A DNA stretch of 64,000 nt. It comes from Candidatus Thorarchaeota archaeon. Lineage in GTDB: Archaea > Asgardarchaeota > Thorarchaeia > Thorarchaeales > Thorarchaeaceae. Positions 36,102 through 61,261 of the stretch are shown in pieces (within the stretch, counting starts at the first letter, position 1; each line of letters opens with the position of its first letter). The translations under genes were made by a program, and so were the position numbers. The stretch is from positions 2,891,006 through 2,955,005 of the forward strand of contig CP070761.1 in assembly GCA_020348985.1 (NCBI GenBank). The letters are read 5' to 3'. A model generated the notes under the pieces. It searched no databases. It was not told the DNA's origin and worked only from the letters and a program-made list of their open reading frames with translations.

Positions 36102-38570
36102 CTATCTCGTACGGACCCGGAATAGTAGTACGATTACAACTACGGCAGCAATGACGCCACCAAGGATGAATTCCATTCCAATACCAGGGGTTGCTTCATC
36201 AGGCTCTACCTGATAGATTCCGTAGTTGATATCGTAAGTGTAACCAAAAGTGTCGACAACCGTGATTTGAATCAGAAGTGAAGTTTCGCCTGGGAAGGGG
36301 CCTATCTCAAGTCCATATCCATTCCCATAGTTCTCCATCGGAGCTGTTTGAGCATCTCCGCCTTCAACCACATACTCCAATGTGACAGAGGAGATGAACC
36401 TGTAGTCTCCTGGGTTTCTCAGGAGCAGAATCGTGATGGCATGTCCTCCCTCAACGAGCTCTTCTGAAACCTGGACGGAGGGGACGAAACCGTATGCTTC
36501 TACCATAATCGGTTTCGGCTTGTATGTCGTGTTGTAGTCTCTTACGTATAGCCCTATTCGAGCATAGCCATAGTCACCAACATCGTAGCCGAAGCCGACT
36601 ATTTCGGTGGATTGAGGTCCAATTTCCACCAACATTGACGGTAAGTCGAACGTGACCGCGTCTGCTATGACTGGAGTGACATTTACGCTAAGGCCTACGT
36701 CGAGATTGTTGGTGAATGTAATTGAAAAGGATCTGTTAGAATGAGGTTCCTCCAAACCGAAACTCTCGCCTAGCGGGCTCACTTCGATTCCAAGGATCAC
36801 ATCAGATACTGCGTCATTTGCCAGCTTAATTGCCCTTGTTGGATTCCAGTGTTCGAGGGAGCTTTCAGCATCAGCAAGGTAGAGTCTCGCAACACCAACA
36901 TCCTCGCCTGACAGCTCAAGTGCATCAAGCTGTGCTTCTGCATCGACAACGACCGTCTCCGCTTCATCCCATGTTTCCATGAATCTATCAACCCAGACTT
37001 TTTGGCCAAAGACTAGGCCATTGAATTTGTCGAGAATAACCGTCCTTCTATTCAAGAGCGCATCAACAATATCATCCACGGACAGCGTTCCATTGGGACC
37101 TGTTGGGTCTCGCACGAACAAGACATTGAGAATTCCGTCCAGATTCCTTGAGCCATGCGTATCACACGATGCTATGAACGGTGCGTGGTAGGCCGCTTCG
37201 CCTATTCCATGAATATAGCCCCTGTTGTTGACCTCGACCCCTTCGTACCCGATTGTTTCAAGCTGGTTGTAAGGCTCGGCGTGTTTTGGTGAAAGTGTTG
37301 GATGACTTAGGAAGACAACTCCTCCCTGGGCATGAATGCCATCAACGGCTTCCTGAACACTTGTAGTGAATATGTTCTCAGTCATCGGGAAGCCAACCAT
37401 GTGCGGTGTCCGGGATATCTCTGCTCCAATTCCGATGAGAACATCAAGATTGTATAGATCCCGAAGTGCCTTCACTTGGATTCCGCCGACAATTCCGTTC
37501 TGAGCAGGAGTCTCATACGAATGGTCTGTAACAATGAAGTAGTCCAGCTTGACTTCTAATGCTCGAAGCATTTGCTCCCAAGGAGTAGCAGTACCGTCAC
37601 TTACAGTCGTATGTTCATGAATAACACCACTGAAAATCTCATACTCCTCTATCTCTGTGCTGTTAATCTCCGGTCCACTACCAACTTCGATGATTGCTAG
37701 CTCAGGAGGATCAACTTCCCTTGGATTGTTTCCAACCAGCCAATCTATGACGTTTAGAGAGAACTGAAAGTGATCGTTCTCACCTACCTGCCCAGTTGCG
37801 GTAGTGCCCGGCTCATTTCGTCTATATTGCGAGAATGGTCCCGAAGAACCTACAGCCACAACCCTGCCAGAGCCGCTCTCTGAATATGCGACGAAGTCCT
37901 TTTCGTCTGACATGACAACAGATACTGCTGGACTTGTTACTTCCAGTGAACAACCGTATATGTCATCATTTGACGCATGAAGAGACTGGACGCTATAGGT
38001 CAGGTGATGGTCTTCTATCTCGTCAGCAGTACGTAGGCTCCACGTCATGACTCTGTCGAGGTTGAATGAAATCCCGTAAGTCTCCGAAACCGCATTCAAG
38101 TAGTCGGGCGTGTATATCCATCCAAGAGTTGTATAGTCAACTCCTACTAGCAAAAGGCTTCCACCGGCATCAACGAAGTCGTGAATTGCTGTTATTTCTC
38201 CTGCAGTGAGTGCCTCCTGAGGGAAGAACAAACACAGAACATCGTAGTCATTGAGAATGCCGGAGTCCAAGGAAGAACCCCAATTCATTGACACATTGTG
38301 ACCGTACTCTCTGAGAACCCAACCGAACATCGAGGCATTACCAGGAACCCAGATCTCTGATGTGGGTCCTGCATGTGACTCGTCAACAAGGATTCTAGCG
38401 CTTTCGAATGTCTGAGATGTCTCGTTCACATGAACAGGAGATGACACAGTTGTCGAATTGTCAAAGGCCGGTAGGGCCGGTGTCACAATCGGCAGTAGAA
38501 GGACAATCAAGATCAAAAGGCGACTAGAAAGACGAGTCACTTTAATCGAGACGAAGCGGGACCTTGTCAC
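36102..38570 (-). CDS. membrane-anchored protein with GATase-like and PHP domains
   Basis: An 822-residue surface protein. Order: signal peptide (residues 15-35), a GATase1-like domain (about 60-290) with LLLVGVDYTTLGW and AVGSSGPFSQY segments, then a PHP domain (about 310-560) with FSGVIHEHTTVSDG, FIVTDHSYE, GIGAEISRTPHMVGFP, VFLSHPTLS and ASCDTHGS as metal ligand segments, a helical linker, beta-sandwich domains, and a C-terminal membrane helix (GGVIAAVVVIVLLF). An ectodomain PHP metallophosphoesterase next to a glutaminase-like fold is unusual; it may cleave extracellular phosphoesters or be a cell-wall modulator (inference). Confidence 0.85.
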   Translation of the reverse strand: MTRSRFVSIKVTRLSSRLLILIVLLLPIVTPALPAFDNSTTVSSPVHVNETSQTFESARILVDESHAGPTSEIWVPGNASMFGWVLREYGHNVSMNWGSSLDSGILNDYDVLCLFFPQEALTAGEITAIHDFVDAGGSLLLVGVDYTTLGWIYTPDYLNAVSETYGISFNLDRVMTWSLRTADEIEDHHLTYSVQSLHASNDDIYGCSLEVTSPAVSVVMSDEKDFVAYSESGSGRVVAVGSSGPFSQYRRNEPGTTATGQVGENDHFQFSLNVIDWLVGNNPREVDPPELAIIEVGSGPEINSTEIEEYEIFSGVIHEHTTVSDGTATPWEQMLRALEVKLDYFIVTDHSYETPAQNGIVGGIQVKALRDLYNLDVLIGIGAEISRTPHMVGFPMTENIFTTSVQEAVDGIHAQGGVVFLSHPTLSPKHAEPYNQLETIGYEGVEVNNRGYIHGIGEAAYHAPFIASCDTHGSRNLDGILNVLFVRDPTGPNGTLSVDDIVDALLNRRTVILDKFNGLVFGQKVWVDRFMETWDEAETVVVDAEAQLDALELSGEDVGVARLYLADAESSLEHWNPTRAIKLANDAVSDVILGIEVSPLGESFGLEEPHSNRSFSITFTNNLDVGLSVNVTPVIADAVTFDLPSMLVEIGPQSTEIVGFGYDVGDYGYARIGLYVRDYNTTYKPKPIMVEAYGFVPSVQVSEELVEGGHAITILLLRNPGDYRFISSVTLEYVVEGGDAQTAPMENYGNGYGLEIGPFPGETSLLIQITVVDTFGYTYDINYGIYQVEPDEATPGIGMEFILGGVIAAVVVIVLLFRVRTR

Positions 38571-57020: not shown

Positions 57021-58565
57021 ATGAGCTGGAAATCCAGAATCCTTAGCCACCTGCCTCTAATTGTGATATTGATTGCAGGTCTAGTGGTTTGGATTCAAGT
57101 CTTTCAGATTGCGGCTGAAGATTATCTTGCAGAGGGTTCTTGGAACAGCATGCATGCATGGCTAGGAGGCGCGGGGCGCGTAGGTGTAGATGTCGGTCAA
57201 TTCGATTTCTTTGGATTGACAATACCATTCCAGTTCGAAGGCTACTCGGACTACAGCTACTTCTACAAGCACTGGGGAAACAACGTCCTGAACGGGCTTC
57301 TTCCATATTCCCCAGAATTTGGTTATCTTGAGATAGATGGGATTGTAAACGAGAACGGTGTATATTTCTTCCCGCCACTGTACGCGATTCTTTGCGCCTT
57401 TGGTGTATTGTTAGAACCAAATATCGGAATAGGAATAATCCTATCTTCATTCGGATTCGTCACAGTCCTCCCTGTTTACGGAATTGCCACGGAACTGTCG
57501 AATAACAGGCGTGTTGGAGAGATAGCGGCTCTAACTTACCTGTTTAACCCCAACGTGTTATACCACGTCACTTTCCTCTGGATGAATACTCCGCCATTCA
57601 TTTTCTTCTTCTTTTCGGGATTCTATATGCTCATCACTGGACGACGTCATGCTGGTACCCTTCTGATTGTGATGGCAGCACTTTTCAAGCAGACCGCATG
57701 GTTTCTTGGCATTCCGCTAGTTGTACATCTGCTCATCCGAAAGAGGAATTCGAACGGTGAGTCATCAGAGAAGAAGAACCTGATTGATTCGCTTGCAAGT
57801 ACTATGGACTTCAAGGCATTTGCGACCAGCGTTGTCGTTGTGTTGATCTTTGGGCTTGCAGTTCTCTTGCCCTTCCTTCTCGCCCAGCCTGATACGATGC
57901 TGTCCTACATGTCACTGGCTGCAGGTGGATTTCCCTTGGAATCGTTCACAGATCCGCCCGGGTATGGAAGTCCCATGAGATTTCAAGTATTGCCTGTTGT
58001 CTTGGGATTCCCCGACGCTGCACAGTTCCTTGACGGCCTTGTCTATTATGGGATTCTTCTGTGGTTCGGTGTTACTCTTCTTGGTGGCTACCTCTTCTTT
58101 GAACCAAAAATGGATACAAACCGTAATCACTACTTTCGGAGACTCTTGTTTGTAACCATGCTAATGATGTTCTGGGTTCACCTCATGGGTCCTCGTGGAG
58201 TCTACAAGTACTACTTCACCCTCTTTGCACCATTCTTCTCCATCTTCTCATCACGCGGCATGGTCGTGGGTCCTGAGGAACGTGTCAAGGCTTCACCCAC
58301 AATGCTGTTCATTCCAGCTCTGTTCAGTTCTTTGATTCTGATTCCTCCTCGTAACATATACTTCGTCTCTGTCATCGCGATATACCTACTGTACATTCTG
58401 GCCTCAGTATCAGGTTGGAGAAGGAAGCCATCTCCTGATGCTCCTCCGGAGCCGAGCGAACTCACTGAGATGTCAGAAACTCCAGACAGCTCGACACCTC
58501 TCGAAGACGTTAATACGCAGACTGTTGTTGACAAAGTGGGTACTGGAGACAACTCAATGAACTGA
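57021..58565 (+). CDS. GT-C type membrane glycosyltransferase-like protein, copy 1
   Basis: A 514-residue polytopic membrane protein. A first helix (LPLIVILIAGLVVWIQVF) is followed by an extracytoplasmic loop rich in aromatic residues (EGYSDYSYFYKHWG), where GT-C glycosyltransferases carry their catalytic acid, and about nine further helices. The segment MLITGRRHAGTLLIVMAALFKQTAWFLGIPL and the HLMGPRGVYKYYF segment also occur in copy 2. The last 60 residues are Pro/Ser/Glu-rich. The likely activity is sugar transfer from a lipid-linked donor. The start codon is ATG 57021 after the rad50 gene. Confidence 0.78.
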   Translation: MSWKSRILSHLPLIVILIAGLVVWIQVFQIAAEDYLAEGSWNSMHAWLGGAGRVGVDVGQFDFFGLTIPFQFEGYSDYSYFYKHWGNNVLNGLLPYSPEFGYLEIDGIVNENGVYFFPPLYAILCAFGVLLEPNIGIGIILSSFGFVTVLPVYGIATELSNNRRVGEIAALTYLFNPNVLYHVTFLWMNTPPFIFFFFSGFYMLITGRRHAGTLLIVMAALFKQTAWFLGIPLVVHLLIRKRNSNGESSEKKNLIDSLASTMDFKAFATSVVVVLIFGLAVLLPFLLAQPDTMLSYMSLAAGGFPLESFTDPPGYGSPMRFQVLPVVLGFPDAAQFLDGLVYYGILLWFGVTLLGGYLFFEPKMDTNRNHYFRRLLFVTMLMMFWVHLMGPRGVYKYYFTLFAPFFSIFSSRGMVVGPEERVKASPTMLFIPALFSSLILIPPRNIYFVSVIAIYLLYILASVSGWRRKPSPDAPPEPSELTEMSETPDSSTPLEDVNTQTVVDKVGTGDNSMN

Positions 58566-58583: not shown

Positions 58584-60074
58584 ATGTCAGGTCTGCTTTC
58601 TCCCATTCAACGAATATACAGATATGCTAGGACTCATTGGATGCTCATTCTGGTTCTCGTTTTGGCAGCCTTCGTGTGGACGTTGATATTCTCGTTCGCT
58701 GCTGTTGAATTCGTTTCTGGGACTAGACCTTTCAGAGCAGCCTGGAATGGAGAGGCGGATATCATGCTCTTTGGGTACACTTTCGATGTTCATTTCGAGG
58801 GTTTTGCGGACCATGATTTCTACTACGTTACCTGGGGAGAGCAATTCCTATCGGGTTATATTCCTTATACTGACTTGTTCGACAACCTCATTATTGACAC
58901 AGTGGAGTGGTACACTCCCTTCTTCTTTCCGCCTTTGTACGTCTATCTCTGCGCTCTCGGCGTTACTCTTCCATTCGAACCCTCGGGCATAGCCGTTCTG
59001 ATCTGTTCCTTTGGATACTTGACTGCATTACCAATCTACGGTATCGTCACCTATCTTTCAGACCGACGCGACATTGGTGCAGTTTCAGCGGCAACGTATC
59101 TGTTCAATCCCCTGATTCTGTACCATACGGTGATTCAATGGCTTAACCCCGCCCCCTTCGTTTTCTTTGCAATGACATCTCTATACTTGTTGATGAGAGG
59201 CCATCGGTATCTGGGTCTGCTATCTATGGTAACAGCGGCATTGTTCAAGCAGACTGCATTCTTTCTTGCCTTTCCCCTGATCGCCTTTCTAATCAAGCGG
59301 CCGCCTGGCTGGAAGGCCCAGAATGAGGAGTCTAACGGAGGAGACAAGAAGAAGAGAATACTGCCTAGCGATAGAGTAGATCTTTCTGGTTTCTTCAGGA
59401 TGATAGTGGTTGCAGGAATATACGCTGGCATTGTTTCGTTTCCGTACATACTCGATCTGGGAAACTATGCGTTCAATATTTTCCAAAGAGCCGGTTCTAC
59501 ATTCTTGGAGGATTTTGTCACCCCGCCAGCTAACAATGTCCCGATTACCATGGCTGTTCCATTCATTGTCCTGGGTGCTCCAGAATGGTTCTCTCAAGCT
59601 TTGAACGCGTTTTCATTCTATTCCCTAGGTGTTCTGATTGGGATTCTGATATTCTTCACCCTGATGCTTTTTGAAGTGAAGGATGACTCCGATCTGCAAG
59701 GATACTGGCGACGAATAATGTACTTCACCTTACTGCTCATGCTATGGATTCACATCTGGTCGCCAAGGGGAGTCTACAAGTACTACTTTGTGGCTTTAGT
59801 TCCCTTCTTTTCGATACTTTCTGTTTCTTCGATGTGCTCGAAGTCAAAGGAGAAGATTGAATTCTCCTTGTTCATGGTAGTCGTCCCTTTCCTCTTCACC
59901 ATCTTGATCCTATTTCCTCACCGAAACATCTACCTTCTTGGCGTTGTCTTCATACTCCTTGCCTATGTCATTCAGAAGTCAATAGCCAAGGTTCACCACC
60001 GCCTCGGATCGGCATTGGGGGCAGCATTCACTCCATTTCGCACTCGTATCCGGCAGGGCAAGTCCCTTGACTGA
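58584..60074 (+). CDS. GT-C type membrane glycosyltransferase-like protein, copy 2
   Basis: A 496-residue paralogue of the preceding gene. It repeats EGFADHDFYYVTWG in the first loop, LMRGHRYLGLLSMVTAALFKQTAFFLAFPLI in the middle and IWSPRGVYKYYF near the C-terminus, and ends with a basic cytoplasmic tail instead of an acidic one. The start is ATG 58584, 18 bases after copy 1. Tandem duplication and divergence suggest two related donors or acceptors, or a heterodimer. Confidence 0.78.
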   Translation: MSGLLSPIQRIYRYARTHWMLILVLVLAAFVWTLIFSFAAVEFVSGTRPFRAAWNGEADIMLFGYTFDVHFEGFADHDFYYVTWGEQFLSGYIPYTDLFDNLIIDTVEWYTPFFFPPLYVYLCALGVTLPFEPSGIAVLICSFGYLTALPIYGIVTYLSDRRDIGAVSAATYLFNPLILYHTVIQWLNPAPFVFFAMTSLYLLMRGHRYLGLLSMVTAALFKQTAFFLAFPLIAFLIKRPPGWKAQNEESNGGDKKKRILPSDRVDLSGFFRMIVVAGIYAGIVSFPYILDLGNYAFNIFQRAGSTFLEDFVTPPANNVPITMAVPFIVLGAPEWFSQALNAFSFYSLGVLIGILIFFTLMLFEVKDDSDLQGYWRRIMYFTLLLMLWIHIWSPRGVYKYYFVALVPFFSILSVSSMCSKSKEKIEFSLFMVVVPFLFTILILFPHRNIYLLGVVFILLAYVIQKSIAKVHHRLGSALGAAFTPFRTRIRQGKSLD

Positions 60075-60097: not shown

Positions 60098-61261
60098 CTA
60101 TTCGGATGCCTTCAGGTCTTCCAATTCCTTCTCTTTCTTCTCAAGTTTCTTCTTGAGACTCTCAAGGCGTTTGTCAAGTTTATCCGCTTGCTCTTGATAG
60201 CTTTCCGTGGGCATTGCACCAGAGGAGTGTCTCTGTTCTATGTGTTCTCGGAGCTGTCCAACGGACTTCAGTTCCTTCTTCAATGCCTTCACATCATCCT
60301 TCAATTCGCCTTCTTTCGATTCTTCGTCCGATTGGAACTGCTTTGCTGGTATCATCACCCCAAGCTGACCCTGAGTCTTCTCAGCAAAGTCTTGGAACTG
60401 GTCTCTAAGCTTCTCAATGTTGTCCTCCACACTCGACACATGTTTACTGACCTTTTCAATGTCCTTCTGGAGGTCAAATACTGCATCAACAAGCCTTCGT
60501 AGCGTGGACTCGAACTCCTTCGATACTGATGGCATCGGGGTTTCCTCCTTCTTCTTCTGCTCCTCAGCCACTTTACTCGGTTTTGGCGTGACAACCTGGT
60601 CACCAAGCCATCTGAATGCATTTACAGCGAACGTTTTATTCCCGGGATGCTGAAGACCTCCGCCTCTCCTGAAGATCTCATAGCTGCCTACACACAGGAT
60701 TCTACCTTTACCATGCTCAGCTACCGCAATTACGGGTTGCTTTGGCGGGTCCGCAGTGTCAGAAGTGCAGGCAATCACCGTCGCTTTCTCGGTGACTTTC
60801 AGAGTACAGCCTGAAGGAATCAGAAGCTCTCGGACATCATCAGTTATTGGATGAGCGGTTATATCAGAAATAATCGGCATAGTCGGAAGCCCTGCGTTGT
60901 TCCTTTCATCCTTAATTGCAGTGTTCTCAAATGATATCCCGAAGCCTTCAGAGATCTTGCTCATGTTGTTCATCAGGCCGCGATCCCCTCCAGAGAGTGA
61001 GAGAAGGAAGAGGCCGCCCCCGTTCTCCACAAACCGCTTCAGCGTGTCAACCTCGGGCTGACGTAGCTTGGAGCTATTGGGACAACCAAAGACAAGCACC
61101 TTGCACTCTGCTATCTTCTTTGCCAGTATCATATATTCAGAATAGGGCATGGCCTCAATGTCGTTATCTTTTAGGAGCTGTGCCAACTCAGAGTATGTCG
61201 AGTCCAGCCTTCCACGCTCATTCTGGGTTTGGTCAAAGAAGACTCTCATTCCTGAACTCAT
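60098..61261 (-). CDS. GIFT/IFT52-like domain protein with C-terminal coiled coil
   Basis: A 387-residue soluble protein. Residues 1-230 resemble the GIFT/GATase1-like fold of DUF4350 and IFT52: MRVFFDQTQNERGRLDS, KVLVFGCPNSSKLRQPEVD, LKRFVENGGGLFLLSL, ISEGFGISFENTAIKDE and the closing GSYEIFRRGG. Residues 250-385 form a coiled coil (KKKEETPMP ... VSKHVSSVEDNIEKLRDQFQ ... LESLKKKLEKKEKELEDL). IFT52 in eukaryotic intraflagellar transport has a GIFT domain followed by helices that bind IFT88. Homology to IFT52 is my inference from layout and needs a profile search. It is divergent from the HIT gene. Confidence 0.78.
   Translation of the reverse strand: MSSGMRVFFDQTQNERGRLDSTYSELAQLLKDNDIEAMPYSEYMILAKKIAECKVLVFGCPNSSKLRQPEVDTLKRFVENGGGLFLLSLSGGDRGLMNNMSKISEGFGISFENTAIKDERNNAGLPTMPIISDITAHPITDDVRELLIPSGCTLKVTEKATVIACTSDTADPPKQPVIAVAEHGKGRILCVGSYEIFRRGGGLQHPGNKTFAVNAFRWLGDQVVTPKPSKVAEEQKKKEETPMPSVSKEFESTLRRLVDAVFDLQKDIEKVSKHVSSVEDNIEKLRDQFQDFAEKTQGQLGVMIPAKQFQSDEESKEGELKDDVKALKKELKSVGQLREHIEQRHSSGAMPTESYQEQADKLDKRLESLKKKLEKKEKELEDLKASE

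Follow-up and report, generated by a model that had tools for sequence, protein, structure and literature searches.

IFT52 (OSM-6/BLD1) is a core IFT-B subunit of the intraflagellar transport (IFT) trains by which eukaryotic cilia are built. Behind its GIFT domain come a disordered stretch that threads through IFT88/IFT70 and an IFT46-binding domain (PMC10191852), and the GIFT domain itself associates with IFT-B2 (PMC7561706). Other proteins have the same kind of fold: OST48/Wbp1, of which Asgard WBP1 homologues have been reported (PMC10307638), and these homologues belong to the same GIFT superfamily as the protein described here, and GldG/ABC_transp_aux, DUF4350 and ThuA share a GATase1-like, GIFT-type fold with it and match it weakly. 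The protein is encoded by a Candidatus Thorarchaeota archaeon in a 64,000-nucleotide stretch of DNA (hereafter the window), and a first reading of that stretch (the original prediction) had described it as an archaeal protein with a GIFT-like domain and a coiled-coil tail, resembling IFT52. In the open-access literature we found no paper naming an Asgard IFT52 homologue; preprints and most subscription journals lay outside this search.

The locus is confirmed as a real, conserved gene. Its 387-aa open reading frame begins with ATG and lies on the minus strand, with ends that coincide exactly with the interval originally predicted, 60098-61261, and both phrases quoted in that prediction, ISEGFGISFENTAI and LKRFVENGGGLFLLSL, fall within it. 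The protein is matched in 56 of 59 related genomes; within the source family, 35 of the 36 other genomes contain a near full-length match with 56-71% identity, and in the sole exception (G019) the match is truncated by the end of a contig. By hydropathy there is no transmembrane segment or signal peptide (maximum Kyte-Doolittle 19-residue mean, 1.04).

Table 1. Features of the 387-aa protein and their positions in the window.
Feature	Residues	Window position	Strand	Basis
Whole gene, soluble GIFT and coiled-coil protein	387 aa	60098..61261	-	Open reading frame and orthologues
GIFT domain	1-222	60596..61261	-	PF23355, PDB matches, fold model
Family signature FDQTQNERG, loop after strand 1	9-17	61211..61237	-	Alignment
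GGDRGLMNNMS loop	91-101	60959..60991	-	GG[DE]-x-[TN]N-x-[NS] signature, common with IFT52
Linker, low confidence	223-247	60521..60595	-	pLDDT ~50-60
Coiled-coil helix	248-300	60362..60520	-	AlphaFold2 model, heptads
C-terminal helical hairpin	306-387	60101..60346	-	Model and tail HMM

The predicted GIFT-like domain is borne out by the Pfam model PF23355 (IFT52_GIFT), which recognizes the protein with an E value of 2.3e-16 and 60 bits, against a cut-off of 27.2. All 25 of 25 members of the family match this model (best E value, 1.2e-28), including a Sifarchaeum member that reaches 100 bits. Membership in the other families with this type of fold was rejected: the GldG/ABC_transp_aux match scores 19.7 against a cut-off of 34.7, and the protein has neither the transmembrane segments nor the ABC transporter neighbours that would go with GldG/ABC_transp_aux; the ThuA match is below cut-off, as are the remaining Pfam matches. 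The DUF4350 match (24.3 bits) lies under the curated cut-off of 30.4, and the DUF4350-only alternative that the original prediction had set against IFT52 thus fails. In a single-sequence search of the PDB the best matches are Chlamydomonas IFT52 (3.8e-12) and mouse IFT52 (1.9e-5), and a profile of 25 Asgard members finds IFT52 first (2.2e-25), covering both halves of the domain, with OST48 absent among the 60 PDB matches listed.

The same resemblance is seen in the fold. An AlphaFold2 model built with 40 Asgard sequences has a mean pLDDT of 89.5, with values mostly above 92 in the GIFT domain and of 92-98 in blocks from residue 21 onward. When this model was compared with the PDB by Foldseek, a check that the original prediction had proposed, the best matches were IFT52 itself and not folds outside the GATase1/GIFT group: IFT52 chains lead the list (2.5e-19 to 4.3e-12), mouse IFT52 superimposes with an rmsd of 2.2 and a TM score of 0.85 by target length, and the fold is common with the N-terminal GIFT domain of IFT52 (PDB 5FMR/5FMS/8BD7) over ~224 columns. 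The first matches other than IFT52 are GH42 galactosidases (5.5e-10), then ThuA-like proteins, which leaves IFT52 a margin of about nine orders of magnitude over the next fold; OST48/Wbp1 does not occur among the top 50 matches. The likeness to the IFT52 GIFT domain that had been read from the sequence is upheld by Pfam, by the PDB profile and by the fold.

As a control we used GIFT domains of non-Asgard archaea, mostly from genomes of one family (f32) that appears Thermococcaceae-like, modelled identically. These proteins have the GIFT fold in common with ours, and some exceed the PF23355 cut-off, but their GIFT domains sit C-terminally in open reading frames of 400-1300 aa, unlike the N-terminal head of the 387-aa protein. 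By Foldseek, the control domain matches IFT52 at 1.9e-11, Wbp1 at 7.8e-11 and S1P at 1.8e-10, all within about one order of magnitude, and the control profile finds IFT52 as its top PDB match (3.7e-22) with S1P and OST48 detected too. Because non-Asgard GIFT domains also find IFT52 first, the similarity is partly general to GIFT domains, and IFT52 as the top PDB match is weakened as a sufficient proof; only the margin discriminates. As OST48/Wbp1 and S1P follow close behind IFT52 in the control, the 387-aa protein is unusually IFT52-like, and the closeness of its GIFT domain to that of IFT52 is special. In individual f32 loci (L175-L177 and L180-L182), the C-terminal GIFT domain is about equally near IFT52, Wbp1 and S1P by fold.

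Examination of the alignment shows that IFT52 and the 387-aa protein have P-K-E, GG, GG[DE]-x-TNxN and G-S-F positions in common. The signature GG[DE]-x-[TN]N-x-[NS] is present in 19 of 20 family representatives, in both IFT52 sequences and in 13 of 17 other Asgard soluble GIFT proteins, and in none of 19 non-Asgard GIFT domains or four Asgard OST48-like proteins; these counts are descriptive only, because the motif was defined post hoc from the alignment. A hidden Markov model built from two eukaryotic IFT52 sequences (taken from PDB alignments) gives median scores of 54.8 bits for the 387-aa family, 47 for other Asgard soluble GIFT proteins, 36 for OST48-like proteins and 31.5 for non-Asgard GIFT domains, with the 387-aa family above the last group at p 7e-7. 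Residues invariant in the family are F9-D10, R16-G17, P61, K65, G91-D93, N99 and Y194. The FDxTQNERG loop is the family's own and is missing in IFT52; together with the other invariant residues in loops at strand ends, it suggests a retained binding pocket that may have been partly lost in IFT52.

Behind the GIFT domain, the helical, coiled-coil tail of the original prediction is found in the AlphaFold2 model as a long helix with strong heptad periodicity (hydrophobic fraction 0.87 at positions a/d, 0.13 elsewhere) and a hairpin with arms at residues 312-346 and 352-386. A tail HMM recovers this tail in members from Jord, Frey, Sigyn and Loki archaea (E values of 1e-7 to 2e-10; best background neighbour open reading frame, 0.049), and in the alignment Heimdall-type members have different, shorter helices in its place. 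This tail differs from that of IFT52, where a central IFT88/IFT70-binding region and a C-terminal IFT46-binding domain stand in place of the coiled coil and hairpin; none of the layout that follows the GIFT domain of IFT52 in IFT-B is seen here. Specifically, neither PF23352 (IFT52 central region) nor PF21178 (IFT52 C-terminal domain) is among the matches listed for the 387-aa protein or matches any of 176 Asgard genomes, although both models matched nowhere and their sensitivity is unchecked, and IFT46 (PF12317) is above cut-off in none of the 176, with one match below cut-off in another lineage.

The family is pan-Asgard and nearly universal in the source family, and the Asgard host implied by the original prediction fits a protein that is present throughout the Asgard archaea. 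IFT52_GIFT is above cut-off in 169 of 180 Asgard genomes versus 0 of 14 control genomes, and among 392 archaeal genomes searched at E <= 0.001 there are matches in 98 of 99 Asgard genomes versus about 39 of 293 others. When one genome from each of 84,980 species was scanned with the motif FDx[TS][QH][NK][EP]RG[RK], 80 loci were kept, all Asgard by title or relatedness, from Thor-, Jord-, Frey-, Sigyn-, Loki-, Hel-, Heimdall-, Sif- and Wukongarchaea; as a single motif was used, relatives that do not carry it would be missed. One of these loci (L142, WJJB01000272.1) is titled Bathyarchaeota, and its GIFT protein groups with Asgard sequences (Sigyn/Loki), as do the neighbours, so it is probably a mislabelled metagenome-assembled genome. 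Plasmids yielded only weak DUF4350-type haloarchaeal matches and one actinobacterial match, and phages yielded no relatives.

In phylogenetic trees the 387-aa family forms one Asgard clade (support 99/95 and 86/88 in two trees). The phylogeny that the original prediction called for thus establishes the family as a clade of its own and leaves the attachment of IFT52 without support: IFT52 is on a long branch, and in several datasets, which contain two eukaryotic IFT52 sequences and barely sample bacteria, it is not placed within or beside the family with support. AU tests reject none of the placements compared, whether IFT52 is joined to the 387-aa family (p 0.46 and 0.61), joined to OST48-like proteins (p 0.33 and 0.51) or set outside all 37 Asgard soluble GIFT proteins (p 0.71). 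A group uniting IFT52 with Asgard soluble GIFT proteins (81/72) is unreliable, because the free search was outscored by the constrained ones. Asgard OST48-like proteins are joined by human OST48 (100/88 and 99/88), and the agreement of this grouping with the published Asgard WBP1 homologues is a positive sign for the tree method; the Asgard proteins beside human OST48 (L167, L168, L170 and L171; 99/88) are OST48-like membrane proteins. OST48/Wbp1 and its Asgard homologues differ from the 387-aa protein in their membrane anchor and extracytoplasmic location (judged by sequence and known topology), in having no GG[DE]..TN loop and in forming a separate clade. Membership of the 387-aa protein in OST48/Wbp1 was rejected on that separate clade, the lack of a transmembrane segment and the lack of OST48_N in the source genome.

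The genes around the GIFT gene vary. In the window the order is NurA-like, HerA, Mre11-like, Rad50-like, two proteins with no Pfam match, the GIFT gene (convergent), HIT, PCC and a family-B DNA polymerase, and the order polymerase-PCC-GIFT is common to Thor, Jord, Frey and Sigyn. Downstream of the GIFT gene in Heimdall lineages and Wukongarchaeum come an ATP-dependent DNA ligase and an orphan of 190 aa, with a gap to the ligase of 7-31 bp in several lineages and of 114-139 bp in another. GPN or Arf/Rag GTPases lie beside it in Loki lineages. We find no operon partner that is conserved across lineages, and because no single neighbour is conserved, context does not name a function.

We propose, with a probability of about 0.6, that the 387-aa protein is a soluble oligomeric scaffold bearing an IFT52-type GIFT head for docking, and that IFT52 drew its GIFT domain from among the soluble GIFT proteins of Asgard archaea. 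Oligomerization of this non-enzymatic protein would be driven by its coiled coil and hairpin, and the head would dock a partner protein or ligand through the conserved loops that line the C-terminal edge of its beta sheet. It would thereby resemble the GIFT domain of IFT52 on IFT-B2, the rest of IFT52 stringing other subunits together, and the scaffold would act within an Asgard complex. Because the head is like IFT52 and the tail is different, the protein could be an early relative of a single IFT component and not itself an IFT protein. It has an IFT52-type GIFT domain without being an IFT52; that IFT52 descends from it is plausible but unproven. Of the suggestion that it adds an Asgard-type precursor to intraflagellar transport, the GIFT homology stands; the tail is unlike that of IFT52, IFT46 and the other IFT52 domains were not found, and the trees give no support. 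A stronger version, in which the IFT52 head descended vertically from the 387-aa family, a swap of tails made IFT52 and the coiled-coil scaffold predates cilia, we offer tentatively, at somewhat less than even odds. A pan-Asgard soluble IFT52-type head is a concrete candidate source of one IFT-B core module and so bears on the origin of IFT, and GIFT modules seem to have diversified already within the Asgard archaea, which have both soluble forms like IFT52 and membrane forms like OST48.

Several other explanations must be weighed against the scaffold. The protein could be an ordinary archaeal GIFT protein without a special tie to IFT52, which tops the match lists through its canonical sequence and the small number of solved GIFT structures. 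Non-Asgard GIFT domains also match IFT52 best by sequence and fold, PF23355 finds matches in about 39 of 293 archaeal genomes outside Asgard, and a position of IFT52 outside the Asgard soluble GIFT proteins survives AU tests; however, IFT52 leads OST48, S1P and GH42 by about nine orders of magnitude in our case and by about one in the control, the IFT52 HMM ranks the 387-aa family highest, and the GG[DE]..TN loop common with IFT52 is missing from the non-Asgard set, all of which makes this explanation doubtful. Another possibility is a ligand-binding or enzymatic protein of GATase1/ThuA type, acting on a sugar or nucleotide, with a tail that serves only for oligomerization. We consider this improbable: published accounts treat the GIFT domain of IFT52 and that of S1P as structural, protein-contacting parts (PMC10191852, PMC11231238), and no conserved residue is seen at the position where we would place the GATase nucleophile, although many family members show weak ThuA, DUF4350 and GATase1-like matches, the invariant residues lie in loops after strands where such folds presumably bind ligands, and GIFT domains have been suggested to bind sugars (PMC7226087).

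Gene context and the OST48 relationship raise two further roles. The nearby family-B DNA polymerase and HerA/NurA/Mre11/Rad50-like genes in the window, and the ATP-dependent DNA ligase gene lying 7-31 bp downstream in many Heimdall lineages and in Wukongarchaeum, point to DNA replication or repair, but the neighbours are unrelated ones in Loki, Hel and other lineages (GPN and Arf/Rag GTPases, eIF2B-like, isocitrate dehydrogenase) and in Thorarchaeota the gene is convergent or divergent to its immediate neighbours, so that such a role is quite improbable. A glycosylation accessory protein related to OST48/Wbp1 is very improbable indeed, despite the GIFT domain of Wbp1 (PMC7226087), the known Asgard WBP1 homologues (PMC10307638) and the two polytopic-looking proteins that adjoin the gene in Thorarchaeota: the 387-aa protein has neither a signal peptide nor a membrane anchor, OST48 clusters apart from it with the Asgard OST48-like proteins (99/88), Wbp1 is absent from the top 50 fold matches, and the polytopic-looking neighbours are on the opposite strand and occur in Thorarchaeota only.

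Additional GIFT-like sequences and recurrent neighbours were seen in passing. A paralogue of 822 aa at 36102-38570 (minus strand) in the window has a GldG/IFT52_GIFT-like domain below cut-off (26.4 and 24.2 bits), and the source genome contains several further GldG/IFT52_GIFT-like open reading frames of 381-1489 aa. The two Pfam-less neighbours in the window (57021-58565 and 58584-60074, plus strand) are related, polytopic-looking proteins kept beside the GIFT gene in Thorarchaeota, and by eye their products have the look of GT-C type transferases. In Heimdall, Sif and Wukong loci (L126-L132, L141, L146 and L149-L160) the ligase and a Pfam-less orphan of ~190 aa adjoin the GIFT gene, spaced as in an operon in several lineages. 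In Jord, Frey and Sigyn loci (L119-L125) the adjoining gene is ARPC4-like (Arp2/3 20 kDa subunit; 28.7 against a cut-off of 22.2 in L123), and it is followed by an MBL-fold gene and a protein of ~593 aa that matches AP-mu (Adap_comp_sub, 4.6e-5) and DUF11 weakly.
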